Source of the DNA: Chitinophaga niabensis
GTDB lineage: Bacteria > Bacteroidota > Bacteroidia > Chitinophagales > Chitinophagaceae
Direction: 5' to 3'
Assembly (NCBI GenBank): GCA_017849435.1
Contig: JAFIGY010000022.1
Coordinates: 124,001-188,000 of the forward strand
Length of the DNA: 64,000 nt
In this document: positions 1,406 through 21,801 of the stretch, piece by piece
Numbering within the stretch: the first letter of the stretch is position 1
Layout of the letters: the number at the start of each line of letters is the position of its first letter
Program-made: the position numbers and the translations under genes
The notes under the pieces: model-generated
What the model saw: the letters and a program-made list of their open reading frames with translations, nothing else
Database searches by the model: none
What the model was told of the DNA's origin: nothing

Positions 1406-1409
1406 TCAG

Positions 1410-2915: not shown

Positions 2916-3089
2916 TGTTGTTGTTACCATTCCGGTCTCACGTAATTAACACGTAAAAGCTTCCCCAGGTGACATTATTGTATCTGGTTCAGTAAATATT
3001 GTATCTCGTACTTTATTGTTAAATTCTCTGTTTGAGTATAATCTTAAAACCGAATGCTTAAAGAGAGCACCACAGAGAAATCTATGGCG

Positions 3090-3581
3090 TTACCTGTTCT
3101 TCCGTCTAAAGGGACCTTTTGGGGCGATGATCTCCAGATTGGTACCATCAGGGTCTTGGAAATAAGCTACGGCCGTGCCAAATCCTGATTTTAATCCATC
3201 TTCCTGCTGGAATACGATTGGTTCACCTTCCGGTTCCACGCCTATTTCTTTCAGGCGTTGTATAGCAGCAGCTATATCATCTACCTCAAAACAAAGATGC
3301 ATAGCACTGATCTGGTTGTTCTGATAAGACGTTTTTTCAGGAACAGGAAGCACATATTCCAAAATATCGATGTTCAGATTATCCAGGTGGAGATTCGCGT
3401 ATTTGATGAGGGTATCTTCCAATCCCTGTGTTTTAGCCATTCTTGGTCCACCGATTTCATCCTTATTCGATATTTTGGTACCAGTCAATGCTTCATAAAA
3501 AGCGATAGACTTTTCCAAATTGCTGACGGTAATTCCGACGTGATTGGCACGTGAGAATCCGGATACTTTTGCGTTTGTCAT
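3090..3581 (-). CDS. VOC family protein (glyoxalase/bleomycin resistance fold)
   Basis: A 163-residue cytosolic protein with two beta-alpha-beta-beta-beta modules. It opens with ANHVGITVSNLEKSIAFYE, the usual first strand and metal-binding histidine, and ends with a second module containing DPDGTNLEIIAP, whose glutamate usually completes a VOC metal site. Family members include glyoxalase I, dioxygenases and antibiotic-binding proteins, and which of these applies is not visible. It lies 26 bases downstream of the aldo/keto reductase on the same strand and is probably the last gene of a three-gene redox/detoxification operon whose first gene starts at 5241. Confidence 0.85.
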   Translation of the reverse strand: MTNAKVSGFSRANHVGITVSNLEKSIAFYEALTGTKISNKDEIGGPRMAKTQGLEDTLIKYANLHLDNLNIDILEYVLPVPEKTSYQNNQISAMHLCFEVDDIAAAIQRLKEIGVEPEGEPIVFQQEDGLKSGFGTAVAYFQDPDGTNLEIIAPKGPFRRKNR

Positions 3582-3607
3582 AGTGTCTGGTTTTTATTTT
3601 TATACAG

Positions 3608-4603
3608 TTAGTAGATGGCAACAGGATTTACAAGTGCACTGTTGATAGCGTTCATTTCTTCCGGGGAGAGCCGGATATCCATTGCTTTAGCATTGGCCAT
3701 GGCCTGTTCTGCGTTTCTTGCACCTGCCAGCACCACGGTGATCGCGGGTTGCAGGCTAGTCCAGCGTAATACCAGTTGAGATAACGTCGCATTTTTAGCT
3801 TCCGCTATCGGGGCAATTGTATCGAGGAATGTTTTCACCTTCTCTAAATCAAACTGCTGGAAATATCCATTTCTATGATCATTATCTTTCAGTTTACCTT
3901 CTTTGAAGTATTTACCAGTGAGTAACCCCCTTTCCATGGGGCTATACACGATAATACCCACATCATTTTTCAGGGCGTAAGGCACCAGGTCTTGTTCAAT
4001 ACTCCGGTTTAGCATGCTATAACCCACCTGGTTGCTGGCAATGTTCACGGTATTCCGGGCTTCCGCCAGTTGGTCAACGCTGTAGTTGCTGACCCCTGCT
4101 GCGCGGATTTTCCCTTGTTGTAAAAGCTGTTCCAGCGCTTCCATGGTTTCAGCAATGGGGGTGGTACTATCCGGCCAGTGGATCTGCAACAGATCAATAT
4201 AGTCTGTCTGCAGGCGATGAAGACTTTCTTCCACTTCCTTCACTACGCTGGCTTTGGAAGCGTATTTATACACAGGTATTTTTTTGCCGGCATCCTCCGC
4301 ATCAAAGAAAAATTCGCCTTTCCCATGGTTGCTGCCGTCCCACACCAGGCCGAATTTGGTTAACAGTTGAATCTTACTTCTATCATATCCTTTGGTGGCC
4401 TCGCCAATCATTTCTTCACTCAGTCCGAGCCCGTAGAACGGCGCAGTATCCAGTGTGGTTACACCGTTGTCAATAGAGGCTTTTACCGATGCGATGGAGT
4501 CTTTTTTCTCGTTACCACCCCACATGTTACCGCCGATAGCGAAGGCACCGTAAGTAATGGCAGATAATTTCAGTTCTGTATTTCCCAGTTTTCTGTATTC
4601 CAT
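3608..4603 (-). CDS. Aldo/keto reductase
   Basis: A 331-residue NADPH-dependent oxidoreductase with a TIM-barrel fold. All four catalytic residues are visible: Asp52 and Tyr57 in DTAPFYG, Lys83 in LLTKFGL and His142 in LLQIHWPD. The C-terminal cofactor-binding region holds LAGARNAEQAMANAKA, a typical NADP phosphate-binding stretch. Length matches the family. It likely reduces small aldehydes or ketones in the cytosol. It sits 11 bases after the MdaB-like gene and 26 before the VOC gene, all on the minus strand, and the operon faces away from the LysR gene, which is its likely regulator. Confidence 0.9.
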   Translation of the reverse strand: MEYRKLGNTELKLSAITYGAFAIGGNMWGGNEKKDSIASVKASIDNGVTTLDTAPFYGLGLSEEMIGEATKGYDRSKIQLLTKFGLVWDGSNHGKGEFFFDAEDAGKKIPVYKYASKASVVKEVEESLHRLQTDYIDLLQIHWPDSTTPIAETMEALEQLLQQGKIRAAGVSNYSVDQLAEARNTVNIASNQVGYSMLNRSIEQDLVPYALKNDVGIIVYSPMERGLLTGKYFKEGKLKDNDHRNGYFQQFDLEKVKTFLDTIAPIAEAKNATLSQLVLRWTSLQPAITVVLAGARNAEQAMANAKAMDIRLSPEEMNAINSALVNPVAIY

Positions 4604-4614
4604 TTTTTATTTTC

Positions 4615-5241
4615 TTAGTGAGATGAATATCCGGACAATTGTTTTTGATGCTTCAGTACTTGTTCCAGGTGCCTGATGTAGTCCTGATGATAGTTATTGA
4701 TCCGTTCTGGTGTAGCGTTTTTTTCCAGATCATGAAAGTGGAAGCCGGTTGTTCTATCCATGCCTACGAACTGGTTCATCTTGTGAAAACCGAACAATAC
4801 ACCATCATCCACTGATCTTTGATCAAAAAATTCACCCGGGAGCGTAAAAGCAGTCTCAGGGGCATTCCAGGTAGTGGTGACCATATATTTTGTACCCTGC
4901 ATCAGTCCGCCGGTACCGTAATTGATAGCCGGATTTTTCCGGCTTCTGCCGTCGCTGGCGTACATACCATTCTGATGACCGGCCGTGAATACTTCGTCTA
5001 TATATTTCTTTAAACGATTGGGTACCTGGAACCACCATATGGGGGTGTGATAGATAACCAGGTCGGCCCATTTAAAGTGCTCCACTTCGGCCATCGCATC
5101 AAAATCATCATTGATATTGACCACCCGATACTCGAACCCATTTTGGGCCAGGAATGCTGCCGTCCAGCTCGTCAGCAGGTTACTAAACCTGCCACCGGAG
5201 TGAGCGAATACCTGTCCAGCATTGATAATGAATACCTTCAT
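4615..5241 (-). CDS. NAD(P)H-dependent flavin oxidoreductase, MdaB-like
   Basis: A 208-residue protein of the flavodoxin-like quinone reductase family, close to E. coli MdaB (modulator of drug activity B). Visible signatures are the N-terminal strand MKVFIINAGQ followed by HSGG, the flavin-binding loop YHTPIWWFQVP, and the loop near residues 110-135 containing NYGTGGLMQG. These enzymes bind FAD or FMN and carry out two-electron reduction of quinones, limiting oxidative stress. It is the first gene of the minus-strand redox operon, and its start faces the LysR gene across 97 bases, the usual arrangement for a LysR regulator and its target. Confidence 0.85.
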   Translation of the reverse strand: MKVFIINAGQVFAHSGGRFSNLLTSWTAAFLAQNGFEYRVVNINDDFDAMAEVEHFKWADLVIYHTPIWWFQVPNRLKKYIDEVFTAGHQNGMYASDGRSRKNPAINYGTGGLMQGTKYMVTTTWNAPETAFTLPGEFFDQRSVDDGVLFGFHKMNQFVGMDRTTGFHFHDLEKNATPERINNYHQDYIRHLEQVLKHQKQLSGYSSH

Positions 5242-5245
5242 TTAT

Positions 5246-5259
5246 ATAATTTTAATTAT
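5246..5259. promoter_or_regulatory. Inverted repeat in LysR/MdaB divergent promoter region
   Basis: ATAATT-TT-AATTAT is a perfect inverted repeat with a 2-base spacer, placed just upstream of the MdaB-like start in the 97-base divergent region. It could be a LysR operator half, but the region is very AT-rich and such palindromes arise by chance. Confidence 0.3.
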
Positions 5260-5338
5260 CGATACCGCAAAGTTCTATTATTTTTATATATCACACAAAT
5301 AACTTAAATTGCAGTATAGTATCATAAAAATTATAGTT

Positions 5339-6253
5339 ATGCCATGGAATCTCGAATGGCTTCGAACATTTAAGGCCATATATGAAGGCGGAACACTATC
5401 TGCAGCGGCGCAGGAGCTTTCTGTTTCCCAGCCAGGCGTAAGCCTTCATTTAAACTCGCTGGAAGCTTTTACCGGGTATAAACTGTTTGACCGGTCCGCC
5501 AGAAAGATGGTCCCTACAGAAAAAGGAAAGATCCTGTACAACTACATACTGGCCCCCTTGAAAAAACTGGAAACGGGGGAACAACATTTTCACAAGCGTT
5601 CGAAAGAAGAGCGTGCAACGATTAGTGTGGGAATGTGTTTTGAAACGTTCCAATACACGCTGGAAGAACATATTGCCAATCTACCATTTAATCTGATCAT
5701 CAAATTCGGGGAATATCCGCAGATGCAACAGGATCTCGACAATGGTCTGCTGGACCTGATCATTACACCACAAAAGGGGCAACAGCAAAATCTGCAATAC
5801 CTGCCATTTTCCAAAGAGAAGATTGTGCTGATTGCCGGCAATAAAACAAAAACAGCCGAACTGGAGAATTTGTTTGATCAGGGAAAAACGAAAGAAGCGA
5901 CTCGCTTATTAAAGCAGCAACTCTGGTATAGTACAGCAGCAGACATGGAACACCTGAAAAATTTCTGGGTAAGGCATTTTGGAGAACATCCGGATTTCAG
6001 TCCGAATTTTATTGTTCCCAATATCAGCTCCATTATCCGCTGTCTGAGTGATGGTAGAGGATTTTCGGTCGTACCGGATTTTCTTTGTGCGGAAGCCATT
6101 GCGGCGGGGAAAATAAAGGTAGCCTGGGAAGGCACTAACCCGCTGGAGAATACGCTTTATTTCGGCACCCGGAAGAAGACCATGTACCAGAAAGAAATCG
6201 GGCAACTGGAACAGTTACTGAAAGAAAAATGGGAAATAAAAGCTGAAAAATAG
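5339..6253 (+). CDS. LysR family transcriptional regulator
   Basis: About 304 residues from the ATG at 5339; the frame is open back to a TTG at 5309, but the family begins with a sequence like MPWNLEWLRTFKAIYE, so 5339 is preferred. Residues 1-60 form the winged helix-turn-helix (LSAAAQELSVSQPGVSLHLNSLE), and the rest is the periplasmic-binding-protein-like effector domain. LysR proteins act as tetramers and usually control the divergently transcribed gene. Here the target would be the MdaB-like/aldo-keto reductase/VOC operon, so a redox-active or electrophilic effector is plausible. The effector cannot be read from sequence. Confidence 0.9.
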   Translation: MPWNLEWLRTFKAIYEGGTLSAAAQELSVSQPGVSLHLNSLEAFTGYKLFDRSARKMVPTEKGKILYNYILAPLKKLETGEQHFHKRSKEERATISVGMCFETFQYTLEEHIANLPFNLIIKFGEYPQMQQDLDNGLLDLIITPQKGQQQNLQYLPFSKEKIVLIAGNKTKTAELENLFDQGKTKEATRLLKQQLWYSTAADMEHLKNFWVRHFGEHPDFSPNFIVPNISSIIRCLSDGRGFSVVPDFLCAEAIAAGKIKVAWEGTNPLENTLYFGTRKKTMYQKEIGQLEQLLKEKWEIKAEK

Positions 6254-6463
6254 CTCTTACAGGTCCGATTTATACTGGCAGGTATTTATTAAGTACTTTC
6301 CAATTTTCCAGCTAAATAACCTAAAACGAAGTAACTTACAACCACTCTTCAAAGGATAAAAAGTGATTACAAACTATAAAAAAAGAATACGAATTTTGTA
6401 ATAATCCAATCACAAGTTAGCGGTCATTGTATGGCGATACCCTACAACTTTTGAGCAAATAAT

Positions 6464-7318
6464 ATGCAAGCACAAAAAGGGAAATACGAGGGCTTACAGA
6501 ATGATGAGCTGGGAATAAAGATTCGCTCAAACGACAATCCTTATCTTTCAGTTGACATTCAAAAAGAACTGCTACAACCTCGCAGATTATCTTCTTATTT
6601 TATTGTATTAATTGAAAGTGGTTCAATCACATACAATTTTGACTTACAAGACTTTATGCTTACTGACGGGCACTTGCTTTTTGCAATGCCCAATCAAATT
6701 TTTACGCCACCCGCTAAAATAGACAATCTTAAATATTTCAAGCTGCTGTTTGATGAAAATACACTGGCATTATTGCCACAACAATTTCCCTTCCTGGTCA
6801 ACCCTTTAAACGCACAAACCATAGTTCTTGACAGTGCTGCAAAAGAAAGAGTAATAAAGGTTTTTGGAATTTTGAATCAGATACTTCACTTAGATAAATA
6901 TAAGACGGACGCTGAAATAATATTAGCTTATTTGAACTCATTACTATCAGAACTAAACAGCGCTTATTTCAAAAACAAAGAACCCGTCAATATCTTAAAC
7001 ACTAATCTTTCAAAGTTTGTCGAGTTCAAATTAGTCGTGGAAACGCACCTTACAGAGCAACCTTCTATCAACGCAATTGCAGAAAAATTAGCTTTATCTA
7101 CAAACAGTTTATATCGGATAGTAAAAGAATATTCCGGAACATCACCCAAAGATTATTTTATTAACCGCTTGATGGCGGAAGCTCAGAGAAGATTGCGTTA
7201 TTCTAATATTTCTATCAAAGAATTGGCCTACGAATTAGGCTTTAATGATCCTGATTATTTTTCAAGGCTCTTCAAAAAAAGCACAGGAAAAAGTGCAAGC
7301 GAATTTTCGCCCAAGTAA
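6464..7318 (+). CDS. AraC family transcriptional regulator
   Basis: 284 residues. The C-terminal part, about residues 195-282, has the two helix-turn-helix motifs of the AraC/XylS family, ending in the typical ELAYELGFNDPDYFSRLFKK and GKSASEF. The N-terminal 170 residues look like a cupin-type sensing domain. The gene is clearly more AT-rich than the chromosome around it and prefers A/T-ending codons, as does the next gene 83 bases downstream, so the pair was probably acquired together. The likely target is the adjacent short-chain dehydrogenase gene, a common AraC/oxidoreductase arrangement in Bacteroidota. Confidence 0.9.
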   Translation: MQAQKGKYEGLQNDELGIKIRSNDNPYLSVDIQKELLQPRRLSSYFIVLIESGSITYNFDLQDFMLTDGHLLFAMPNQIFTPPAKIDNLKYFKLLFDENTLALLPQQFPFLVNPLNAQTIVLDSAAKERVIKVFGILNQILHLDKYKTDAEIILAYLNSLLSELNSAYFKNKEPVNILNTNLSKFVEFKLVVETHLTEQPSINAIAEKLALSTNSLYRIVKEYSGTSPKDYFINRLMAEAQRRLRYSNISIKELAYELGFNDPDYFSRLFKKSTGKSASEFSPK

Positions 7319-7371
7319 GATTTGTCGGGGAAATAAAATGAATTGTCCATTTCCGCTATTTTTTAACCCTC

Positions 7372-7379
7372 TACTTTTG
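7372..7379 (+). promoter_or_regulatory. Putative -7 box (TACTTTTG) for the SDR gene
   Basis: TACTTTTG fits the Bacteroidota -7 consensus TAnnTTTG and lies 22 bases before the ATG at 7402. No clear TTTG -33 box is seen at normal spacing. It suggests that the dehydrogenase can be transcribed independently of the AraC gene. Confidence 0.45.
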
Positions 7380-7401
7380 CCTCATAAAATTCATACAGGA
7401 A

Positions 7402-8139
7402 ATGAAATTTGCATTAGTAACGGGAGCTAACAAAGGCATTGGCTTTGAAGTTGCACAGCAACTTGCTCAAAAAGGAATTTATATTTACCTCGGCAGTCGT
7501 AATTTAGAAAATGGTGTTGAAGCCGTTGATAAATTAAAAGCGAAGGGATTAAACAATGTAGAAGTTATTCAGCTTGACATTACAGATGACGAATCAGTAA
7601 TTAAAGCCCGTAAAGAAATAGGTAAAAAAACAAAAGTGTTGGACATACTTATTAATAATGCGGGTATTTATGGTGGTTACCCGCAAACGGCACTTGACTC
7701 AACTATTGACCAGTTTAAAGCAGCTTATGATACAAATATTTATGGCGTGGTGCGAGTTACACAGGTATTTATTGATTTATTGAAAAAGTCGTCAGCACCC
7801 CGTATTGTAAATGTAAGTTCAAGTCAAGGCTCAATTACCCTGCACAGCGACCCAACATATAAATACTACGACTACAAAGGTGTTGTATATCTTTCTTCAA
7901 AATCTGCCCTGAATATGTACACTGTTGTTTTGGCATACGAATTTAAAAATACCAACTTCAAAATAAATGCCGTTTGTCCGGGATATACAAAAACAGATTT
8001 CAATGGACATCGTGGGCCCGGAACTGTTAAAGATGCCGGAAAACGGATAGTAAAATATGCGCTCATTGACAATGATGGCCCAACAGGAAAGTTTTTTAGC
8101 GAGGAAAATAATCCTGAAACAGGAGAAATACCCTGGTAA
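7402..8139 (+). CDS. Short-chain dehydrogenase/reductase
   Basis: A 245-residue Rossmann-fold oxidoreductase. The nucleotide-binding motif is TGANKGIG near the N-terminus, followed by the NNAG motif (LINNAGIYG), the catalytic serine in NVSSSQGS and a Y-x-x-x-K pair in YLSSK. The C-terminus resembles carbonyl-reductase-like SDRs. The substrate is unknown. Base composition is low in GC like the preceding AraC gene, which points to joint horizontal acquisition. Confidence 0.9.
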   Translation: MKFALVTGANKGIGFEVAQQLAQKGIYIYLGSRNLENGVEAVDKLKAKGLNNVEVIQLDITDDESVIKARKEIGKKTKVLDILINNAGIYGGYPQTALDSTIDQFKAAYDTNIYGVVRVTQVFIDLLKKSSAPRIVNVSSSQGSITLHSDPTYKYYDYKGVVYLSSKSALNMYTVVLAYEFKNTNFKINAVCPGYTKTDFNGHRGPGTVKDAGKRIVKYALIDNDGPTGKFFSEENNPETGEIPW

Positions 8140-10565: not shown

Positions 10566-11918
10566 ATGAAAAAACTGGCATGTCTGCTTACGATGCTGAT
10601 CACCGCGCAATCCCTTTTCGCCCAGAAGGACGACCACATGAAATGGTGGCGCGACGCGCGGTTCGGTATGTTCATCCACTGGGGCGTGTACGCCGTTCCG
10701 GCTGGTACTTATAAAGGCTATCCCATGGCGCGGGGAGGAGGGGAATGGATCATGAACCGGAGCAAGATACCGGTGACGGAATATCAACAATACGCCAAAC
10801 AGTTCAATCCCGTTAAATATGATGCGGATGCCTGGGTAAAAATGGCGAAGGACGCAGGAATGAAGTACATCGTGATCACGGCGAAGCATCACGACGGCTT
10901 CGCACTCTTCAATTCTAAAGCCAGCAAATGGAATGTGGCGGATGCAACACCCTATGGGAAAGATCTCCTGAAACCCCTGGCCGCGGCCTGTAAGAAATAC
11001 GGGATCAAACTGGGGTTCTATTACTCTCAGGCACAGGACTGGAACAATCCCGGCGGAGCCGTTGCCCGTAAGGAAATGCGCGAAGGCTGGCCGAACCCTG
11101 ATTCTGCTAAAATAGACGCCTATACGAAAGAACACAGCGGTCACTGGGATCCCGCTCAAACAACGGCTACTTTTGATCAGTATATCGACAGGGTGGCTGT
11201 TCCCCAGGTGAAGGAGCTGCTCACCAATTATGGGGAAGTAGCGGTGCTCTGGTGGGATACGCCGACTAACATGACGGATGACGCTGCGAAAAAACTGCAA
11301 TCTGAACTGGCACTGCAACCGAATATCGTTACGAATGACCGCCTCAAACGCCCGAATTTCCCTGGCGATTATAAAACGCCGGAACAACGCATTCCCAACG
11401 CCAGCGAGCTTGATGGCCGCGATTGGGAAACCTGCATGACGATGAACGGCACCTGGGGCTACAAAAGCTACGATAATAAATGGAAATCCGTATCCACACT
11501 CGTCCGTAACCTGATAGACATCGCTTCCAAGGGCGGGAATTATTTATTGAATGTAGGGCCTACGGCGGAAGGGGAGTTCCCGGAAGAAAGTATCAAAAGT
11601 CTGAAAGGCATTGGCGACTGGATGAAAGTGAACGGGGAAGCGATCTACGGTACAAAAGGTAATCCGCTGCAGGCGCAGGAGTGGGGCCGTATCACCCGGA
11701 AGCAGAACACTTTATACCTTTCCGTTTTTGACTGGCCGTCCAATGGCCAACTGAGCGTTTCCGGTCTGAAGAACAAGGTGAAAAGCGCTACCATACTGGG
11801 TACCAAAGGAAAACTCAAAACTACTGTCAACGGCGATCAGCTGTCTGTCAGCCTGCCGACACAGCCCGTTAATGAAATTGCTACGGTGGTGAAAGTAGAA
11901 GTGGAAGGGAATCTTTAA
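10566..11918 (+). CDS. Alpha-L-fucosidase, GH29
   Basis: 450 residues from the ATG at 10566, chosen because it starts a clean signal peptide (MKKLACLLTMLITAQSLFAQ); an upstream ATG at 10515 would precede it with an unlikely 17-residue extension. The protein hydrolyses terminal alpha-L-fucose from glycans, most likely in the periplasm. GH29 signatures are visible: WWRDARFGMFIHWG near the N-terminus, AKHHDGFALF, and AVLWWDT, whose aspartate is the expected nucleophile. A beta-sandwich C-terminal domain follows from about residue 360. No SusC/SusD pair is adjacent, so this is not part of a visible polysaccharide utilisation locus. The stop overlaps the convergent MtfA-like gene by 4 bases. Confidence 0.92.
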   Translation: MKKLACLLTMLITAQSLFAQKDDHMKWWRDARFGMFIHWGVYAVPAGTYKGYPMARGGGEWIMNRSKIPVTEYQQYAKQFNPVKYDADAWVKMAKDAGMKYIVITAKHHDGFALFNSKASKWNVADATPYGKDLLKPLAAACKKYGIKLGFYYSQAQDWNNPGGAVARKEMREGWPNPDSAKIDAYTKEHSGHWDPAQTTATFDQYIDRVAVPQVKELLTNYGEVAVLWWDTPTNMTDDAAKKLQSELALQPNIVTNDRLKRPNFPGDYKTPEQRIPNASELDGRDWETCMTMNGTWGYKSYDNKWKSVSTLVRNLIDIASKGGNYLLNVGPTAEGEFPEESIKSLKGIGDWMKVNGEAIYGTKGNPLQAQEWGRITRKQNTLYLSVFDWPSNGQLSVSGLKNKVKSATILGTKGKLKTTVNGDQLSVSLPTQPVNEIATVVKVEVEGNL

Positions 11919-12694
11919 CTCGCTTTCTTTCCCACCGGATCCTGCCGGAACATCTTTGCCAGTAAGGCATACAACTCGGGGTGATGCGTCTGCATCGCCT
12001 CGGGTTTTTCAAAGAAATACTCTGATACTACGGCCAGGAACTCACTCTGGTTCATGGCGGCGTAAGGGTTGATATCCGAATGCCCTTCTTCTATCCGTCT
12101 GATCTCTTCATGCATCACCTGCAGCCAGGGAAGGCTGTAGCTGTTCTGCAGCAGGGACTCCGGCATACCGTCTACAGCGCCGTCCGTTTTATCTACCAGG
12201 TGTACGAATTCATGAATAGCAGTATTGTGTTTCCCTTCATGATCGGAAAAGCCTGCCCGCAGCGCGGATTGGGACAGTAACATTTGCCCGTTCAGCGCAC
12301 CGCTGCCCACCATGCCGAGAATATTCCGCCGGTCGCCTTCATACTGGTATGTTTCATCGAAAGTATCCGGATAGAGAATCACATTGGTGAGATTACGGTA
12401 ACGCCAGCCGGGAAAATAAAAGATCGGGATCACTGCGCTGGCCGCGATCAGCACCCGGTCCACATCTTCCACCTTCGTACCTACACCTTCAATGGTCACG
12501 TCCCGCAGGAAATCCTGTACAGCGGCCACGAAACGAGGTTTTTCCTCCGGTTTCAGCTCGCGGTAATAACGTACCTGTGCTGTCAGCAACGCTTCCGTAT
12601 TGGCGGGAATAACAATTCCCCGGCGCTTACGCGGGCGGCGCCAGAACCACCAGAAAAGCAGCAGAAAAACGATGATCGGTATCACAAATGCCAT
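11915..12694 (-). CDS. Zinc-dependent peptidase, M90 (MtfA-like)
   Basis: A 259-residue protein with one N-terminal membrane helix (residues 2-18) followed by a basic stretch. The M90/MtfA family signature is the zinc motif HEFVHLVDKTDG near residue 160, preceded by the conserved FPGWRY region. In E. coli MtfA regulates glucose PTS through Mlc and has aminopeptidase activity; PTS partners are not visible here, so the role in this organism is open. The membrane anchor is a common variation in Bacteroidota. It is convergent with the fucosidase gene (4-base overlap). Confidence 0.87.
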   Translation of the reverse strand: MAFVIPIIVFLLLFWWFWRRPRKRRGIVIPANTEALLTAQVRYYRELKPEEKPRFVAAVQDFLRDVTIEGVGTKVEDVDRVLIAASAVIPIFYFPGWRYRNLTNVILYPDTFDETYQYEGDRRNILGMVGSGALNGQMLLSQSALRAGFSDHEGKHNTAIHEFVHLVDKTDGAVDGMPESLLQNSYSLPWLQVMHEEIRRIEEGHSDINPYAAMNQSEFLAVVSEYFFEKPEAMQTHHPELYALLAKMFRQDPVGKKAS

Positions 12695-12777: not shown

Positions 12778-15186
12778 ATGCCAAGATGGTTACGCATTAC
12801 CTTCATCTCCACCGGAAGTTTTATCGTTCTGATCATCCTGCTATGGCTGGTGCTCGCATGGATCATCCGCAGTAATAAGCAAACCCTGCTCCGGGAAATA
12901 TCCGCGCAGTTGAGCAACCGGCTGAACGGACAGCTGGAGATCAGAGACATGGAGCCATCACTGGTGCATAGTTTCCCCAATATTTCCGTTACCTTGAAAG
13001 ATGTTTCGCTGAAGGATAGTCTTTTCCGGCAACATCATCATGCTTTGCTGGACGTAAAGGAAATATTTGTGAAAGTGAATACTTTCGCCATTCTTCGCAA
13101 AAAAGTGGAGATCCGCCAGATATCGCTGAAAGACGGGAATATTGATTTGTACACCGACAGCTCCGGATATTCCAACACATACCTGCTGCAGGGTCACTCC
13201 TCTGGCGGAAAACAGCCCGTCATAGAGCGTTTCCGGATGGAGAACATGCAGTTCTCCCTGGAGAATGGTCAGAAGAATAAACGGTTCCGCTTCGCTATCC
13301 GTTCCATGCGTGGCGAAATGAAAAATAATGAAGAAGGATGGACATGCGCGCTGCATACGGATATGCGGATACAGGATATGGCTTTCAATACGGCGAAGGG
13401 AAGCTATGCACAGAACAAAACGCTGCAGGCCGATATCGATCTCCGGTTCACATCCGCCACACGCACGCTGTCTGTCCCTTCCCAGATATTGTATTTCGAT
13501 CAACAACCTTTTACATTCGACGGTACTTTCAATTTTTCCCAGGCGCCACCTGTCTTTAGCCTGAAGATCACAGGCAACCATGTGCATTTCAGGGAAGCGG
13601 CGTCCCTGCTTACGCCCGCTATTTCCCGGAAGCTGGATAGTATTGACTTTGCACAACCGCTCAATGTACAGGCAGATATCCGGGGACATATGCAATACCG
13701 GGATACGCCTTATGTGCACGTCACCTGGGATACGAAGGACAATGTATTGTCCGCACAGTCCCTCGTCCTCGGAAGCTGCAGTTTCCGAGGCGGGTTCCTG
13801 AACGAAGTAACCCCGGGTAACGGTCATAACGATGCCAATTCACGGTTAAGCCTATACGATTTTAAATGCCGTTTTGGCGATATCCCTGTTTCGGCGGACA
13901 CGATCCGCATATTCAATCTGAAGAAACCCCTGCTCACCGGCCGCTTCAGATCCCGTTTCCCGCTCGGCAGCCTCACAGCAGTCATGGACACTGGTTTATT
14001 CAGGTTTTCCAAAGGCGGGATGGATGTGGACCTCGAATACCAGGGTTCCTGGGACGCGAGGGATACCATGGCCGGCTTTCTCCGGGGTACAATGAAAGTG
14101 CAGGATGGGGCTTTTGTTTATGTGCCGAGGGGGCTTGCTTTTTCCAACTGCCAGGCTACGCTGGATTTTACCGGCCAGGACCTTTTCCTCCGCAACGTGC
14201 ATGTGCAAAGCGGCAACAGTACTGTACAAATGGAAGGAAGTATCCGCAACATCCTCAATTTTTATTTTTCCGCACCTGAGAAGATCGTGCTGGACTGGTC
14301 GGTTCGCAGCCCGCTGATCAACCTCAACGAATTCCAGTCCTTCTTCACACAACGCCGCAAAGGAGCGGTCAGTCAGCGTAAAAAGCAGCAGGATATGGCG
14401 CGGGCGATAAAACAGCTGGAAGTGATGCTGGATGCCTGCAGTATGAATATGAAGGTAGCGCTGGATAAAGTGCGGTACCGGCAATTCACGGCTTCCAATG
14501 TAAAGGCCGGCATTTACGTGACCCGGAACGACGTCAGACTCAATAATGTGGCTTTGCAGACAGCAGGCGGACAAATGCAGTTGAACGGCAGTATAGCGCA
14601 TGGAGGGGTCGGGAACGACCGGTTTTCTGTGGACGCGCGGCTCCGGCAGGTGCAGATAGATCAGCTGTTCCATGCATTCGAAGATTTCGGGCAGAATGCG
14701 ATCCGGGGAAAGAATCTGAAAGGAATATTATCCGCCACCGCAAAGGTTTCCGGCGGATTGAAGGAAGACGTTTCCATCAAGCGGCATTCGCTGTTCGGCG
14801 CTGTTACCTTCGATCTCAACAAAGGCGCACTCATACACTTTGAGCCGCTGGAAGATATCGGTATGTTTATTTTCAGGAAAAGGGACATGAGCAATATCAC
14901 TTTCGAGAATATCCACAACACGCTGGACATTCAGGGCAACAAAATCATCATCCACCCGATGATGATTGCTTCCAGCGTATTGAATATCCAGCTCGAAGGC
15001 ATATACGGATTTTCAAAAGGAACCAATATCAAAATGAAAGTCCCGTTACGCAACCCTAAGAAGGATGAGTTGATCACGGATGCGGAAGAATTGAAAAAAC
15101 GGAGAAAAAAAGGCATTGTGATCAACCTGCGTGCGGTAGACGGACCGGACGGGAAAGTGAAGATCAAACTGGGTAAGGGAGATTGA
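12778..15186 (+). CDS. AsmA-like envelope protein
   Basis: 802 residues: an N-terminal membrane helix (about residues 8-30), then a long beta-rich region with an AsmA-type start (NGQLEIRDMEPSLVHSFPNI) and AsmA C-terminal repeats ending near residue 760. AsmA/TamB-like proteins form hydrophobic grooves thought to carry phospholipids between inner and outer membrane. The C-terminal basic tail (KKRRKKG) is notable. The stop codon overlaps a possible early start of the next nuclease gene, but that gene's preferred start is 80 bases downstream. Confidence 0.85.
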   Translation: MPRWLRITFISTGSFIVLIILLWLVLAWIIRSNKQTLLREISAQLSNRLNGQLEIRDMEPSLVHSFPNISVTLKDVSLKDSLFRQHHHALLDVKEIFVKVNTFAILRKKVEIRQISLKDGNIDLYTDSSGYSNTYLLQGHSSGGKQPVIERFRMENMQFSLENGQKNKRFRFAIRSMRGEMKNNEEGWTCALHTDMRIQDMAFNTAKGSYAQNKTLQADIDLRFTSATRTLSVPSQILYFDQQPFTFDGTFNFSQAPPVFSLKITGNHVHFREAASLLTPAISRKLDSIDFAQPLNVQADIRGHMQYRDTPYVHVTWDTKDNVLSAQSLVLGSCSFRGGFLNEVTPGNGHNDANSRLSLYDFKCRFGDIPVSADTIRIFNLKKPLLTGRFRSRFPLGSLTAVMDTGLFRFSKGGMDVDLEYQGSWDARDTMAGFLRGTMKVQDGAFVYVPRGLAFSNCQATLDFTGQDLFLRNVHVQSGNSTVQMEGSIRNILNFYFSAPEKIVLDWSVRSPLINLNEFQSFFTQRRKGAVSQRKKQQDMARAIKQLEVMLDACSMNMKVALDKVRYRQFTASNVKAGIYVTRNDVRLNNVALQTAGGQMQLNGSIAHGGVGNDRFSVDARLRQVQIDQLFHAFEDFGQNAIRGKNLKGILSATAKVSGGLKEDVSIKRHSLFGAVTFDLNKGALIHFEPLEDIGMFIFRKRDMSNITFENIHNTLDIQGNKIIIHPMMIASSVLNIQLEGIYGFSKGTNIKMKVPLRNPKKDELITDAEELKKRRKKGIVINLRAVDGPDGKVKIKLGKGD

Positions 15187-15253
15187 CCATGGATCGGGCA
15201 AGGAATTCCCCGGTGCCTGACAGCAGTATATTTTCTGTTATCGCCGATCCGCG

Positions 15254-15261
15254 TATATTTG
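15254..15261 (+). promoter_or_regulatory. -7 box (TATATTTG) next to the nuclease start
   Basis: TATATTTG matches TAnnTTTG and ends 5 bases before the preferred ATG at 15267. If active, the transcript would start at or very near the start codon (leaderless). The -33 element is not clear. Confidence 0.4.
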
Positions 15262-15266
15262 CCAAT

Positions 15267-16634
15267 ATGTACGCCATTGTAGACATTGAAACAACAGGGG
15301 GCTATGCCGGCGCAGGGAGCATCACGGAAATCGCCATTTTTATCCATGACGGCATGCAGGTGGTAGATCAGTATGAAACGCTTGTAAACCCTGGTGTACC
15401 GATCCCCCGTTATATTCAGGCATTGACCGGCATTACGGACGAAATGGTGGCGGATGCGCCTTATTTTGAAGATGTATCCGCAAAAGTGTTCGAATTGTTG
15501 CAGGGTCAGATATTTGTGGCGCACAATGTGAATTTCGATTATTCCTTTCTCCGGCATCAGCTGGAATCCTGCGGATACCGCCTGCAAAGCAAAAAGCTCT
15601 GCACCGTACGCCTCAGCCGGAAAATATTTCCGGGATACCCTTCTTACAGCCTGGGCAATATCTGCCGTTCCCTGAACATCCATATACAGCAACGCCACCG
15701 CGCATCAGGGGACGCTGCGGCTACTGTACTGTTGTTTGAAAGGCTGCTGAACGCGGACAAGGATAAGGCGATTGCTGCCGCCCTGCACGCTCGTTCCGGA
15801 GAAAAATGGCTGCCGATGCATTTGCCGGAAGACCAGGTATCGGTATTGCCCGCTTCACCCGGTGTGTATTACTTCCATAATGAAAAAGGGAAAGTGGTGT
15901 ACGTGGGGAAGGCGAGGAATATCCGGAAGCGCGTCACCAGCCACTTTACCGGCAACAACCCCGGCCGGCAGCGGCAGGAGTTCCTACGGAACATCCACAG
16001 TATTACGTTTGAGCGGACAGGAACGGAACTGATGGCCTTTATCCTTGAATCAATAGAGATACGCCGGCTCTGGCCACGATATAACAATGCGCAGAAACGC
16101 ATCGAATCAAAGTTTGGATTTTATGCTTTTGAAGATCAGCAGGGGTATTTAAGGCTGGCCATTGAAAAGCGGAGAAAATACACCACGCCGGTGTTTGCGT
16201 TCAACCTGCTGGTGGAAGGGCATCAACGGCTGAGGGCGTTGGTAAAGGAGTTCAAGCTCTGCCCGAAACTCTGCTTCCTGCAAACGGGCAACGACGTCTG
16301 CATCGGCATCGAAGAGAAAACCTGCAAAGGCGCCTGTGAGAAAAAGGAGAAGCCGAAAAAGTATAATCAGCGGGTACAAAAAGCGATCGAACATCTGCAG
16401 ACGGAGCAACCGTCATTTGCCATCATGGATGCGGGACGCATCGCTACGGAACAGAGCTGCATCCTGATGGAGAAAGGGAAATTCTACGGCATGGGTTATG
16501 TTCCCCGCGATGTGGCAGTTTCCGACGGTGAAATGCTGAAGAACTGGCTTACACAGTACCCTGAAAATGAATTCATCCTCAATTTATTACGGCAGTATGC
16601 CAACAACAATACGGCAAGGCTGATCAGTCTGTGA
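15267..16634 (+). CDS. DnaQ-like exonuclease fused to GIY-YIG (UvrC/Cho-like) nuclease
   Basis: 455 residues from the ATG at 15267, chosen because the exonuclease domain starts exactly there (MYAIVDIETTGG); the frame is open back to 15183. Residues 1-165 are a DEDDh 3'-5' exonuclease: D-x-E in DIETTGG, HNVNFD, and HRASGDAA with the final His/Asp. A GIY-YIG nuclease follows at about 195-270 (SPGVYYF, VVYVGKARNIRKRV and a distal Glu), as in UvrC and Cho. Such fusions are widespread and may assist nucleotide excision repair. A CxxxC-x5-C-like cysteine cluster (CPKLCFLQ, TCKGACEK) lies near residues 332-355. It converges on the giant helicase gene with an 11-base overlap. Confidence 0.88.
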   Translation: MYAIVDIETTGGYAGAGSITEIAIFIHDGMQVVDQYETLVNPGVPIPRYIQALTGITDEMVADAPYFEDVSAKVFELLQGQIFVAHNVNFDYSFLRHQLESCGYRLQSKKLCTVRLSRKIFPGYPSYSLGNICRSLNIHIQQRHRASGDAAATVLLFERLLNADKDKAIAAALHARSGEKWLPMHLPEDQVSVLPASPGVYYFHNEKGKVVYVGKARNIRKRVTSHFTGNNPGRQRQEFLRNIHSITFERTGTELMAFILESIEIRRLWPRYNNAQKRIESKFGFYAFEDQQGYLRLAIEKRRKYTTPVFAFNLLVEGHQRLRALVKEFKLCPKLCFLQTGNDVCIGIEEKTCKGACEKKEKPKKYNQRVQKAIEHLQTEQPSFAIMDAGRIATEQSCILMEKGKFYGMGYVPRDVAVSDGEMLKNWLTQYPENEFILNLLRQYANNNTARLISL

Positions 16635-19600
16635 TCTTTTTCCAGCCGCCAGCTGTCTTTTCCTGCACCATTCTTTCCTGTTCCTTTTCAGCATCGGCGG
16701 CATCTGCACAGGTTTTTACCTGTATCTGGCCTTTGGTGCCGGCCTTGCCCTGCCGGATGAATAGTTTAGCGCCACTTAAAGCCACTTCCCAGAATTTCTC
16801 CTGTTTCCCTTCGCCCTGCACGAGGCGGATGGTGCCGGCTGGTATGGCCGCTGAAGGAATGAGGGAGGAGAGCGGAGCAGCATCCGGAAGCCGGTCGAGG
16901 CGACGGAGAATATCTTCCATCACTTTCTGCGGCTGTTGCAGCCAGTCCTTCGCATATACCGTGATCGTGCGCCAGCCAAAGCTTTCGAGAATGGCGGGGC
17001 GCTGATAGTATTGTTCCAGCACATCGGGATGCTGATAGTAGCTTTCGTCATCCACGAGGATGCTCAGGGTAAAGGCTTTGTCTTCCGGCTTCGCCTTCAC
17101 TGCCAGCGAACATTTGAAACCCGATTGTCCCACATGCGTTGCAGTGATGAATCCCATCTGCTCCAGCTGTTGCCGGATATCGTGGAGTACAACGGTATCG
17201 GGTATACGATAATGAGCGGATGACCGGTCTGTTGCCAGTCCGTCCAGTATATTGCGGGTCATGGCCATATTACCTGTGCTCACGGCCTCTGCGTATTGCA
17301 GGAAGCGCCGGAGGTAATTAGCGCCGGCATTATAAACATTGGTGATCTGGTGGTGCCGGATGCTGCTGACAATAGCCATATGCTGTTTGGCACGGCTGAA
17401 GATCACGTTCAGCCGCTTTTCTCCACCTTTCCGGTTAATCGGCCCGAAATGCATGGCCATTTTCCCGCGATGGTCCTGTGCATAGCAAACGCTCATGATG
17501 ATGATATCTCTTTCATCTCCCTGCACATTCTCCAGGTTCTTGATGAACAAGCCGGTGAACTGACCTTCATCCGTCCTTTCCGTGGCGGCATCCAGCAGTT
17601 CATCGAATGTTTTATCATGGGCAGTCAACGTTTCCAGCGCGGTTTCAATAGCATGTTGCTGCTCCTGGCTAAAGGCCACAATGCCAATGCTTTCCGGCCT
17701 GCGCTTCAACAACAGCTCCCGCACGAGATGCGCGATGTACGTGGCTTCAGCAATGTTGCCCCGTTTGGCGTATCGCCCTTCCGGGAGATGATGGAAACTG
17801 ATGCTCCGGTCAAACAGCGTATTCACGGTGAAAAGGGCGTCTGAGGGTTGTTGTACCGTGATGGCAGGTTTTTCTGTGCTGTGGATGCTGCGATCGGGAA
17901 TGGTCAGCAGTCCTGCCCCGTAAAAAGCATGGTTGCTGTAACTGATGAGCGTTTCAAAATGACTACGGTAGTGCCATCCGAGCATCACGCTGTTCATCTT
18001 CCTGGCCCCCTGCACCAACAGACTATCCGCATCCGCACTAAGTATTTCGTCCTCTTCCTCTTCGCGTTCAAGATCATCGGGATCCCCGGATTTCGCCGTG
18101 AAAAAGTCCGTAGGCGGCATCTGCCGGTCATCTCCCACGATGATCGTTTGCGGAGCGCGGTAGAGGGCGGGGACGCCTTCTTCCAATGTGATCTGGCTGG
18201 CTTCGTCAAAGATGACGGCATCAAAATAAGGCTGATCGAGCGGGAGGGAGTCGCTGACACTCAGCGGACTCATGAGCCACACCGGCTTCAGGTCCCGCAG
18301 TACCCGGCCGCTGGCGCGTGAGCTCAGTTCCCGGATGCTCTTGTAACGCATGCTTTTGGCGAATTCATTCTCCAGTATCTTCCGGCCTTCGGCATAGATC
18401 TTCGCAAATTCCTGTTCCGCTTCCGGCACCATGGAAACCGCTTTGCTACTCAGTTGCACATGGGCAGAGAAGCGTTGGCGGATATGGGCACGGATGAAGG
18501 CTGCGTTGAGTTTCAGCAGTTCGTTATAACAGTGCTTTATTTTTTCAACTATCTCTTCGATAGACTGGGAGCCGGTTTGGGCAAAAGACTTATTGTACTG
18601 ATAAACCTGCCGGAGCGTTTTGTGTGCCATGCCGGCCTCCATTTCCGGAGGCGACCAGGGCAGCTTGCGTAAGGCCAGTTTTAACGCGGCGGGCATTTCC
18701 ATATAATTGCCGAGGGCGGGCAGCAATTCCTCCAGCGCGGGCATGTTGAGGCGGATGGAATCGAGCGTGTCGTGGAGCGTGGAGAAGGTCCGGGGTGGAG
18801 GGTCTTGCAAAACCTGCTGCAAGGCCTGTTCCAGCCGGTTCAGATTCTCGTGCAGGCCAGCCAGTTGTATCACGGCCTGTTGTGCCTGCGGGTGTTGCAA
18901 TAGGTATTGCAGCGAGCTGTCAGCCTGCCGCGCCCGCAACCTTTCAATGGCCAGCCAGGTAAGCTCGATGTTCTCTATCTGATATTGCTGCTGCACCGAG
19001 TTACGTGTATCCGTGAACGTTTGTTGTGCGGCATATTCGGATTTCAGCAGCTCAAGGATATGGCTGTAAGTGGGAATGACGGCATGTTTGGAGAGATCAT
19101 AACATGCACTGATCTGCCTTTTCAGCCTTCGCCAGCTGCCGGAGAGAAACCGCCAGAAAGAATTTTCGTGCCGGTATGCCACTTCCAGCGCCTGCAGGGT
19201 ATCCTGTTCACTGAATTTCCTCGTCCAGTGCACATTCTGCTGCGCCGCTTGTTCCGCTGCCTGCTGCAAAGCGCGGCACTCCCTGACCTTCTGCTCAAAA
19301 GCCCTTGCCTCAGGATTCTCCGCCATCACCAAACGTAAATTGCCGCTGACAGGCTGGAGCAATACGGCATTGAGCACCAGTTGCCGCAGTTCTTCCAGCG
19401 TTCCCACGGTTACCTGGCCAGCCTGCATGGTTTTCTCTACGGTTTCGAGGCGTCTGTCGGCGTCTTCCAGCAGCCGGGTCAACAGCTGATGCGGTTGTTC
19501 CGATGCAAACACCCGCTCCTGTACCTTGCTCAACGGATGCGCTGCAAATACAGGCTCCGCACCGCTTTCCTCCAGTGCTGCTCCCAGCTGTTCGATCATA

Positions 19601-21801
19601 TTGCCGAACTGCAGCCATTGCCGGTAATGCGGAATGGTTTCTTCGGTAGCGGGGTCGGTGGGATGGAGAAGGGGCTTGAGGGCGAGGAGGCGCTCTGTAA
19701 GCGTGCGCACGGGTATGCCGGCATTTTCTTCCGGTGTGCCCTGCGTGGTGTGAAAGGCACGCAACGTCTCCAGTTGTTGTTGCAGTTGGTGGAGAAGTGT
19801 GTTCCGTTTCAGCGTAATGCTGTGCAGATCCGGACCCGGACGCAGGAAATCTTCATATGTCTCCTTCAAATCTTTGATGAAGGATCGTTTATCACCCTGA
19901 CTATCATGAATGTAACAGCATAACTCATCCAGCCCTTGCTGCTTCAACCGGTGAAAAACCACGTCCAGCGCGGCTCTTTTCTCACATACAAACAACACCT
20001 GCTTTCCACGCGCCACAAAATCGGCGATGAGATTCGTGATGGTCTGGCTTTTTCCCGTGCCCGGCGGCCCCTGGATGATATAGCTTTCTCCAAGCTGCGC
20101 CTGCTGAATGGCTTTTGTTTGCGTAGGATCGGCCAGTATCACGTGATACCAGGCTTCGGGCAGTACCGGAGCGATATCGTCGTCCACCGCCACCGGTTTG
20201 GGCCGTTCACTGAAAAGCTGCTCGAACACTTCATGCTGCTGCGGTTGCTCAATCACCTGGTTGTAATCCCGCACCAGGCTCATCTTTTTATAATTGAAAT
20301 TCCCGAGCACGATATGGCAGGTGTCGAAATCCCAGCGGTAGGGATTATTTTCTTCCGCCGCCATTTCAAACAGCTCCCGTTCTACCGGCTTACCTGCTTT
20401 CTGCTGGTATTGTTGCACGGTGTCTTTGGCCTCCTTATAAATCAGGTTGATGCGCGGTTTGCACCGGTTTTGCAGCACGATGCCGCGGTTGGCGCCTTCG
20501 ATCTGCGTTTGCAGCAGCTGATAGAACTGCTCTACAGACATCTCCTCGAGATCTACCATATCGGGCAACTCAATCCCGTAGAGTTCCCGCAACTGGTTGG
20601 CCAGCACGGGATTCACTTCTGCATTATTATCTGTGATGCCCAACACATACTGATCCGCGCCTACCTGTTTCTTTTTCCTCAATTCCGCAGGTATCAGCAG
20701 GAGGGGACTGAAAATGCTTTCCTCCGGCTCTTCACGGAGGTTGTGCCATTTGAGGAATGCGATCACAAGCCTGAGCTGGCTGAAACCATACTCCTGCACA
20801 TCCCGCTGCGCTTCCAGCCGTACTTTATTGAGGATACCGGGCAGATAGGAATGGTCTTCAAAGCGGAGATATTTATTCAACGCGAGGTCTTTCATCCCGA
20901 TCACCTGTGCTGCGATGACTTCATTCCAGGTGAATAGCAGGTCCGGGCGGATGCTCTGGTGATGCAATACCATCGGTACGCTGCTATGGGTGAGATTGGC
21001 GAACCGGCTGTTGGGCTTGTAGTATAACAACCGGTTACGGCGACTGATATCGAAAAGGCGGTTGCGGAGTTTATGCAGGATGAAGGACTGTTTTTCTTTC
21101 CGGTCATTATACACCCATCCCGCCACCTGCGCCAGATCGAGCTGTTTTTCCGGATCAAAATCGCGGTAATGTTCCAGCCGGTGAATCGCTTCCTGCAGGT
21201 CCTGCGTACGTTGCGCACGGTCCAGTTCCGTCATCTCTGTGATGAGGGTGCCGAGGGTGGGATGCAGTTGCTGGTGCTGAAGGGGGTGTTTACGTTGTTC
21301 TGCCAGCTGGTCGATGTTGTTGGCTGTATACAGGTCCAGCCCCAATGCCACACTCGCCAGTACAAGTCCCAGGCAGAAGATATCCGTTTGCGCATCATGA
21401 TGACCGAGCAGCATTTCATAGCTACGATAACCGGGAATATAGGCAGCATGAAGCAGCGGCTGTTGCAGATCCTTGTGCACCAGGAGGTTGATGGCATCCG
21501 GATGATCCGCCGTCAGCTTCATTTTCCCGGCAATAGCAAAATGCGGGTTATGTCCGTTTGAGCGTGCGTGAACTTTCTCCAAAGCTTCCAGGGGCGGGTG
21601 CGCTTCCGTAATGTTGATGGTAATGGTATGACCAGTGGTTTGCAGCGAATCTTCGAGATCGAAAGGTGCTACGAGGCTGGCGTCGTGCAGGGTTTGCACC
21701 TGTTTGAAAAGCGGCAATACCGCTGCGATCACATCGTCAGTGGTGTAGGCTCCGTGCTGGAAAGCGGTTTGCAGAAACTGCGGGAAAGAGATCGTCGTCA
21801 A
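16624..21801 (-). CDS. DUF4011/SF1 helicase with kinase-like N-terminus, degenerate Vsr-like nuclease and WGR domain
   Basis: 1725 residues. Domains in order: a kinase C-lobe-like region at about 40-225 (YRSYEMLLGH, then TDIFCLGLVLASVALG near 140, resembling the post-activation-loop region and subdomain IX) with no N-lobe and no HRD motif; DUF4011 from about 235 (LRNRLFDISRRNRLLYY); SF1 helicase with Walker A GPPGTGKS near 577, Walker B FDEAS near 1198, GDDRQMPP near 1224 and RLNVIFSRAK near 1463; a Vsr/MTES_1575-like nuclease at 1530-1630; and a WGR-like domain at 1650-1725. The nuclease appears inactive: GFKCSLAV replaces the usual I-D-L-A-V and LSILVDD replaces G-I-E-x-D-G. Related DUF4011-helicase-Vsr proteins are reported in phage defence. 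It stands alone, with no toxin or methylase neighbour. Confidence 0.85.
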   Translation of the reverse strand: MTTISFPQFLQTAFQHGAYTTDDVIAAVLPLFKQVQTLHDASLVAPFDLEDSLQTTGHTITINITEAHPPLEALEKVHARSNGHNPHFAIAGKMKLTADHPDAINLLVHKDLQQPLLHAAYIPGYRSYEMLLGHHDAQTDIFCLGLVLASVALGLDLYTANNIDQLAEQRKHPLQHQQLHPTLGTLITEMTELDRAQRTQDLQEAIHRLEHYRDFDPEKQLDLAQVAGWVYNDRKEKQSFILHKLRNRLFDISRRNRLLYYKPNSRFANLTHSSVPMVLHHQSIRPDLLFTWNEVIAAQVIGMKDLALNKYLRFEDHSYLPGILNKVRLEAQRDVQEYGFSQLRLVIAFLKWHNLREEPEESIFSPLLLIPAELRKKKQVGADQYVLGITDNNAEVNPVLANQLRELYGIELPDMVDLEEMSVEQFYQLLQTQIEGANRGIVLQNRCKPRINLIYKEAKDTVQQYQQKAGKPVERELFEMAAEENNPYRWDFDTCHIVLGNFNYKKMSLVRDYNQVIEQPQQHEVFEQLFSERPKPVAVDDDIAPVLPEAWYHVILADPTQTKAIQQAQLGESYIIQGPPGTGKSQTITNLIADFVARGKQVLFVCEKRAALDVVFHRLKQQGLDELCCYIHDSQGDKRSFIKDLKETYEDFLRPGPDLHSITLKRNTLLHQLQQQLETLRAFHTTQGTPEENAGIPVRTLTERLLALKPLLHPTDPATEETIPHYRQWLQFGNMIEQLGAALEESGAEPVFAAHPLSKVQERVFASEQPHQLLTRLLEDADRRLETVEKTMQAGQVTVGTLEELRQLVLNAVLLQPVSGNLRLVMAENPEARAFEQKVRECRALQQAAEQAAQQNVHWTRKFSEQDTLQALEVAYRHENSFWRFLSGSWRRLKRQISACYDLSKHAVIPTYSHILELLKSEYAAQQTFTDTRNSVQQQYQIENIELTWLAIERLRARQADSSLQYLLQHPQAQQAVIQLAGLHENLNRLEQALQQVLQDPPPRTFSTLHDTLDSIRLNMPALEELLPALGNYMEMPAALKLALRKLPWSPPEMEAGMAHKTLRQVYQYNKSFAQTGSQSIEEIVEKIKHCYNELLKLNAAFIRAHIRQRFSAHVQLSSKAVSMVPEAEQEFAKIYAEGRKILENEFAKSMRYKSIRELSSRASGRVLRDLKPVWLMSPLSVSDSLPLDQPYFDAVIFDEASQITLEEGVPALYRAPQTIIVGDDRQMPPTDFFTAKSGDPDDLEREEEEDEILSADADSLLVQGARKMNSVMLGWHYRSHFETLISYSNHAFYGAGLLTIPDRSIHSTEKPAITVQQPSDALFTVNTLFDRSISFHHLPEGRYAKRGNIAEATYIAHLVRELLLKRRPESIGIVAFSQEQQHAIETALETLTAHDKTFDELLDAATERTDEGQFTGLFIKNLENVQGDERDIIIMSVCYAQDHRGKMAMHFGPINRKGGEKRLNVIFSRAKQHMAIVSSIRHHQITNVYNAGANYLRRFLQYAEAVSTGNMAMTRNILDGLATDRSSAHYRIPDTVVLHDIRQQLEQMGFITATHVGQSGFKCSLAVKAKPEDKAFTLSILVDDESYYQHPDVLEQYYQRPAILESFGWRTITVYAKDWLQQPQKVMEDILRRLDRLPDAAPLSSLIPSAAIPAGTIRLVQGEGKQEKFWEVALSGAKLFIRQGKAGTKGQIQVKTCADAADAEKEQERMVQEKTAGGWKKITD

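Follow-up and report, generated by a model that had tools for sequence, protein, structure and literature searches.

Proteins that join a DUF4011 domain, a superfamily 1 (SF1) helicase and a Vsr-type (MTES_1575) domain, many of them with DUF3320/wHTH as well, have so far been read as DNA-cutting defence machines, and the nearest named relatives of the protein discussed here, Hhe and ProA among them, are anti-phage proteins. The portions of PMC3710099 consulted describe MTES_1575-type proteins with HEPN and transglutaminase fusions, and those of PMC10250203 report that in P. aeruginosa a large DUF4011 gene belongs to the core genes bordering a defence hotspot. What might such a protein do when its nuclease residues have been lost and, in most of its relatives, a metalloprotease gene stands upstream? 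We analyzed a stretch of 64,000 nucleotides from Chitinophaga niabensis (the window) in which one very large gene poses this question. No description of its architecture was found in the literature searched, from which subscription papers and preprints were mostly absent and which included parts of PMC10250203, PMC3710099, PMC8533742 and PMC12839542.

Architecture of the giant protein

The gene, its domains and its convergent neighbour are as follows, with the basis for each call in brackets.

16624..21801, minus strand: whole giant gene, 1725 aa, TTG start at 21801, stop 16624-16626
21157..21801, minus strand: protein-kinase C-lobe without N-lobe, residues 1-215 (Pfam, alignment, AF2 model, structure comparison)
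20590..21060, minus strand: DUF4011, residues 248-404 (Pfam)
20332..20439, minus strand: residues 455-490, site of a segment of about 50 residues found in protease-bearing relatives and missing here (alignment)
17302..20127, minus strand: SF1 helicase core, residues 559-1500 (Pfam and 82-row alignment)
16897..17181, minus strand: Vsr-type (MTES_1575) fold, residues 1541-1635, active site lost (Pfam, alignment, structure comparison)
16633..16827, minus strand: WGR domain, residues 1659-1723 (Pfam, structure comparison)
15183..16634, plus strand: DEDDh exonuclease and GIY-YIG protein, convergent with the giant gene and sharing 11 bases with it at the 3' end (context, candidate partner only)

The five parts proposed in an earlier note made from the sequence, namely a kinase C-lobe, DUF4011, an SF1 helicase, a Vsr-type domain and a WGR domain, do lie in a single frame. 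A whole head requires the TTG start, because an in-frame stop lies four codons 5' of it and the earliest internal methionine is residue 94. The protein is the sole match in its own 5.0-Mb, 23-contig genome (E <= 0.001), and is thus single copy. Pfam places DUF4011, AAA_11/AAA_12, MTES_1575 and WGR above their cut-offs, and the kinase C-lobe match is sub-threshold. The head had been described as a truncated kinase-like lobe, and structure comparison of its AF2 model agrees: it has the fold of a kinase C-lobe, the alignment begins at residue 95 of PknB, and the N-lobe with the Gly loop and catalytic Lys is missing. The position of the HRD catalytic Asp is aligned with a hydrophobic residue (F47 here), and H39, E129, HHD134-136, D140, R195 and R198 are conserved across the family. 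Compared with solved structures by sequence, the head matches only kinases, at E values of 0.025-0.9 that are not decisive alone.

The succession of DUF4011 and a split AAA_11/AAA_12 helicase, with scores above the Pfam cut-offs, places the protein in the DUF4011 SF1 superfamily. The SF1 motifs I, II, III, V and VI are intact (GPPGTGKS 578-585, DEAS 1199-1202, GDDRQMPP 1223-1230, QGDERD 1427-1432 and RLNVIFSRA 1463-1471), and a less conserved stretch lies inside the core at residues ~660-1130. Most motif positions are kept in at least 97% of rows of the family alignment, whose 82 rows include some genes twice and leave out the broken gene at locus L098.

Behind the helicase, Pfam and structure comparison both find a Vsr/PD-(D/E)XK fold, and the C-terminal structure model matches Vsr-type folds as well as WGR structures, including the PARP2 WGR bound to DNA. 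Catalysis in MTES_1575 nucleases depends on the Asp of ID and the Glu of IECDG. Both are lost in 80 of the 80 family rows with letters there, so the Vsr-like nuclease of the earlier proposal is not supported as an active enzyme: the Asp of IDLAV has become S, H, T or N, and the Glu of GIECDG has become L, M, Q, I or S (S1565 and L1582 in the giant). Outgroup nucleases keep the Glu in 21 of 24 rows with letters and the Asp in 25 of 25, a count partly built in by finding these segments through an ID/LD motif; among whole tails, 19 of 19 show the Asp. All 80 family rows retain the third acid, D1584, and the family also conserves GQS 1558-1560, C1564 (79/80), E1596 (79/80), W1610 and DW 1619-1620. 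The domain is, as judged from its residues, a putative pseudonuclease; since these other positions are conserved despite the lost active site, it would be retained for a purpose other than cutting. Estimates of dN/dS by the Nei-Gojobori method are 0.00-0.15 in each of head, DUF4011, middle, helicase, pseudonuclease and WGR, for eight species pairs that do not include the window's giant and in which dS is high, with 4 of 48 cells saturated; values this low indicate purifying selection, on the pseudonuclease too. The WGR tail also proved correct, being above its Pfam cut-off and aligning in the C-terminal model with PARP WGR-DNA structures; L049, L056, L086 and the short forms of the protein have no such domain. 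WGR domains bind DNA breaks in PARPs, and by analogy that of the giant may bind DNA.

The upstream metalloprotease gene and the segment before the helicase

The giant gene had been said to stand alone. This is accurate for the window, where no protease match occurs beside it or in its own genome (E <= 0.001, with L033 as the single query, which does find the protease in five other genomes), but not for most of its relatives, which have an upstream protease gene. Clustering of flanking genes places a gene of about 400 residues upstream of the giant and co-directional with it in 57 of 77 loci, and tblastn adds a 58th at L097; leaving aside L050, L063 and L069, which end before the upstream region, the gene is present at 58 of the remaining 74 loci. 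The 16 without it are 15 Chitinophaga loci and L086, from a Saprospiraceae MAG. Among loci with upstream DNA, the protease is thus just upstream in 58 of 59 outside Chitinophaga, whereas 15 of 15 Chitinophaga loci are without it. For 53 of the 57 loci the intergenic gap falls between -1 and 123 nucleotides, the exceptions being L040 (172), L064 (-58, through start choice), L067 (one intervening gene) and L092 of Niabella aurantiaca, in which the giant gene is split in two; two of the 57 proteases (L054 and L057) are partial as called.

By Pfam the protein is a Peptidase_M48, above cut-off in all four sequences scanned, with a weak SprT-like match of 20-22 bits (cut-off 25.6); PADLOC matched none of the three scanned. 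In the HExxH motif H120, E121 and H124 are invariant (55/55), and E167 (55/56) and D171 (56/56) are nearly or fully so. One query found the protease in none of 59 relatives' genomes, the window's included. In a sample of 147 genomes drawn evenly from the family it occurs in five, all of them among the eight that carry the giant; the three carriers without it are the window's genome, G164 of the same genus, and G073. In an evenly drawn sample of 395 genomes from the phylum, a profile finds it in both other head-bearing genomes. The profile's further match in G379, an M48 protease on a 3.6-kb locus without the giant (L114), is distant and was set aside. Across 54 loci, the pairwise divergences of protease and giant correlate (r 0.97); joint descent would produce this, and it is expected of any two vertically inherited neighbours.

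Protease-bearing proteins also differ from those of Chitinophaga between DUF4011 and the helicase. The stretch between residues 455 and 490 measures 88-193 residues (median 93) in protease-bearing rows and 36-63 residues in 15 Chitinophaga rows, apart from one of 196 with an unrelated acidic insert. The extra segment, of about 50 residues, has the conserved pattern YSYxxExxxPLGLExF. Of the rows with the protease, 56 show this pattern and 2 do not; of the other rows, 2 show it and 22 do not (among them L050, which has no letters there). The four exceptions are L097, with a PMGL variant, L092, of which only the longer piece was aligned, and L063 and L069, whose contigs end without upstream DNA. 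L102, which is without the protease, retains a degraded remnant of the segment. We placed these states on a tree of 66 family and 8 outgroup rows, made by a quick method with SH-aLRT only and with long branches flagged, from which L007, L050, L054, L063 and L069 were dropped as partial or duplicate and in which rows more than 95% identical in the core were collapsed. Protease presence requires three changes on this tree and the strict segment pattern five. Joint absence of the two mostly agrees across three independent events (sign test p 0.25, three events being too few for significance to be reachable). The solo state of the giant is probably derived, and L086 may never have had protease or segment. 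The segment could be a docking or cleavage site. At its place a short tandem repeat (TETxQH-like) is seen in L066, and a long acidic insert in L096.

Two other genes deserve mention. At L072:6071-6760 (Pfam) and, by clustering, in 15 other loci, nearly all Flavobacterium, the protease gene is immediately preceded by one for an NrtR-like NUDIX regulator; it may control the protease-giant operon. In the window, an M90 (MtfA-like, HExxH) peptidase gene at 11915-12694 on the minus strand lies two genes past the giant's end, beyond the exonuclease gene and an AsmA-family gene. Its cluster recurs in several Chitinophaga loci; it is distinct from the M48-like gene, and its position may be coincidence.

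Distribution and gene neighbourhood

The best 80 of 83 relatives in a scan of species genomes fall in 77 loci, all Bacteroidota by title, including Chitinophaga, Niastella, Flavobacterium, Pedobacter, Terrimonas, Cesiribacter and the Saprospiraceae MAG; this was one scan, with patterns from the window's protein, which more distant members, also outside Bacteroidota, would escape. The full-length giant is found in 10 of 36 genomes of the window's genus, its own included, and also counting G006, where it comes as two contig pieces with one internal stop; G024 has a short form. With 8 carriers among the 147 sampled family genomes, the giant is far from being present in all Chitinophagaceae at a housekeeping locus, the distribution that the earlier note had named as speaking against its reading. 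The head is clear in 3 of the 395 phylum-sample genomes, the window's own included, and a weak head match in G437 (E 3e-6) was left out because its identity with this domain is doubtful. A scan of viral contigs confirmed no relative, a single match, of 47%, occurs among 50,697 phage records, and 375 of 72,556 plasmid records match, of which none covers 80% of the query and the best are Hhe and similar proteins. In the sequences covered here, the family is chromosomal.

Chitinophaga, Flavobacterium, Niastella and the Puia group each keep a constant order of genes at these loci, which speaks for vertical descent. Among 30 neighbours scanned with PADLOC (10 from the window and 20 flanking genes from 10 of the 77 loci) no defence gene recurs. 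Four of them match, namely the DEDDh exonuclease, which also partly matches the candidate PDC-S48, an ABC transporter, a UvrD helicase and one mad2; we take these matches to be generic, and the sample gives no sign of a defence island at these loci. Conserved order, neighbours without defence genes and the viral and plasmid results together disfavour the idea of a mobile phage-defence gene.

All 40 genomes examined from the window's genus have the DEDDh-GIY exonuclease gene. It adjoins the giant in G000, G001, G006, G015, G021, G025, G033 and G587, lies 2-6.5 kb from it in G003, G012 and G032, and falls in one cluster with genes close to the pair of protease and giant in L038 and L046. Twelve exonuclease regions fetched in search of an empty site gave no clean insertion or deletion boundary; in G002, G007, G008, G013 and G024, read as without the giant at this locus, other genes flank the exonuclease. 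In G009 and G005 a different helicase of the DUF4011 type, whose nuclease residues are intact, is encoded some 2 kb from it (L149:2714-7078 and L150:2753-7120); with best matches of 31% and 25%, it was ruled out as an orthologue. A UvrD gene is near the pair in L033 by Pfam, and the same cluster occurs in eight loci. The short forms at L065, L094 and L101, which are without head, WGR and protease, stand directly before rmuC in all three loci (Pfam for L065, clustering for the other two). At L090 the protease-giant pair (1258-7986) follows a DnaE-type polymerase gene (Pfam), itself preceded by two genes that resemble imuA and imuB by eye, as in a DNA-damage mutagenesis cassette. Some neighbours are repair or replication genes (DEDDh-GIY, UvrD, RmuC, DnaE-type), an association that may be due to chance, and many others are unrelated metabolic or signalling genes.

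Possible roles and comparison with known systems

The explanation that we prefer is a tentative one, and taken as a whole we put it at somewhat less than an even chance: the giant would be a non-nucleolytic motor, the large subunit of a helicase-metalloprotease module, which works solo in Chitinophaga. It would be a helicase or translocase of the DUF4011 SF1 type, with the dead Vsr-like domain and the WGR serving as DNA grips and the half kinase as a protein-docking surface. We take it as the large subunit of a two-gene module with a soluble M48-like HExxH metalloprotease because its gene follows the protease gene in nearly all non-Chitinophaga lineages. The motor would load where DNA has an end, a nick or a roadblock. 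Once engaged, it would present or activate the protease by way of the segment that separates DUF4011 from RecA1, and the targets would be DNA-bound proteins or a regulator. Where protease and segment are gone, as in Chitinophaga, purifying selection would maintain the motor as a remodelling or surveillance factor that works solo. We infer that DNA is the substrate, that the two proteins are physical partners, with docking and activation between them, and that the role lies in genome maintenance rather than in defence against phages.

Against this explanation count, besides the small number of independent losses of protease and segment and the absence of WGR in some members, the anti-phage identity of the nearest named relatives and the patchy distribution (8/147 and 3/395 genomes), which suits an accessory or defence gene equally. 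For the last two reasons an anti-phage role stays a serious rival, if a less likely one. The giant would then be a single-gene anti-phage protein like Hhe, ProA and the PADLOC candidate PDC-S37, sensing or unwinding invading DNA, its added domains would be specificity parts, and the relatives' protease would be an abortive-infection effector. The kinship with DUF4011 anti-phage helicases asserted in the earlier note is real, since PDC-S37, the best PADLOC match, scores 712 bits and Hhe 333; domain loss in some lineages and the presence of distant helicase-core relatives, Hhe among them, on plasmids fit a defence gene as well. However, the protein falls below the curated NCBIfam cut-offs for Hhe (483 versus 2000) and ProA (697 versus 1500), and the loss of the nuclease residues in 80 of 80 rows, single copy in its own genome, gene order kept within genera, neighbours without recurrent defence genes, and the viral and plasmid results all pull the other way.

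An RNA helicase like UPF1 or IGHMBP2, acting on RNA or stalled ribosomes, with the relatives' protease clearing stalled proteins, seems to us quite improbable. Both RNA and DNA serve as substrates in this group of SF1B helicases, and the AAA_11/AAA_12 domains and a TIGR00376 IGHMBP2-family match of 94.1 bits (below the 348.9 cut-off) are compatible with such a role, but the WGR and Vsr-like domains point to DNA and no RNA-binding domain exceeds its Pfam cut-off in the giant. Hardly credible is decay of a former restriction-type nuclease-helicase into a functionless protein. The lost active site, the absent protease, the G006 gene and the L098 copy of Chitinophaga sp. E66, broken over several frames, might suggest it; the low dN/dS in every domain, dead nuclease and head included, is strong counter-evidence, and family-specific conserved residues such as C1564, D1584 and E1596 and frames that are intact in the window and most listed loci speak against it too.

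If the motor-and-protease explanation is right, it would be a new bacterial coupling of nucleic-acid surveillance to proteolysis. In this branch a motor under strong selection is without the chemistry of a nuclease or a kinase and has a genetic link to a metalloprotease, and it therefore looks like a motor plus protease, not a motor plus nuclease; an annotation as 'defence nuclease' from domain names would be wrong for it. Since the protease is missing in some species, comparing them with the others offers a way to separate the roles of the parts.

SPRTN and Wss1 are DNA-protein-crosslink proteases in which an HExxH metalloprotease is tied to a DNA-engaging machine. The family resembles them in linking such a protease, here weakly SprT-like, with a machine that would engage DNA, and differs in that its protease is M48-like by Pfam and is encoded by a separate gene; a role of this protease at crosslinks would be conjecture. 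A counterpart of SPRTN-type repair, in which a helicase with non-cleaving grips and a pseudokinase docking head feeds DNA-bound or crosslinked proteins to the same-operon metalloprotease, and from which Chitinophaga dropped protease and docking segment, is a doubtful specification; if true, Chitinophaga would be a natural separation-of-function experiment.

Closer comparisons are with the helicases themselves. Hhe (NF042953) and ProA (NF058533) share the helicase and Vsr-fold core with the giant; a Klebsiella Hhe, unlike the giant, retains ID...IECDG, and Pfam finds neither a kinase nor a WGR domain in it at E <= 0.01. The best stretch matching PDC-S37, residues 487-1640, omits the head and the WGR, and no paper naming this candidate was found in the literature searched, subscription papers and preprints being mostly outside it. 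With the DUF4011-SF1-MTES_1575 proteins in general, the giant shares the same domains in the same order; unlike them, it has a dead Vsr site, a kinase C-lobe head and a WGR tail, and most of its relatives have an M48 protease gene upstream. A parallel for the peptidase link is the fused transglutaminase-like peptidase that described DUF4011 giants can carry, according to the parts of PMC3710099 consulted. The giant is a further variant among the DUF4011 SF1 helicases, with a metalloprotease strongly linked to it in its relatives.
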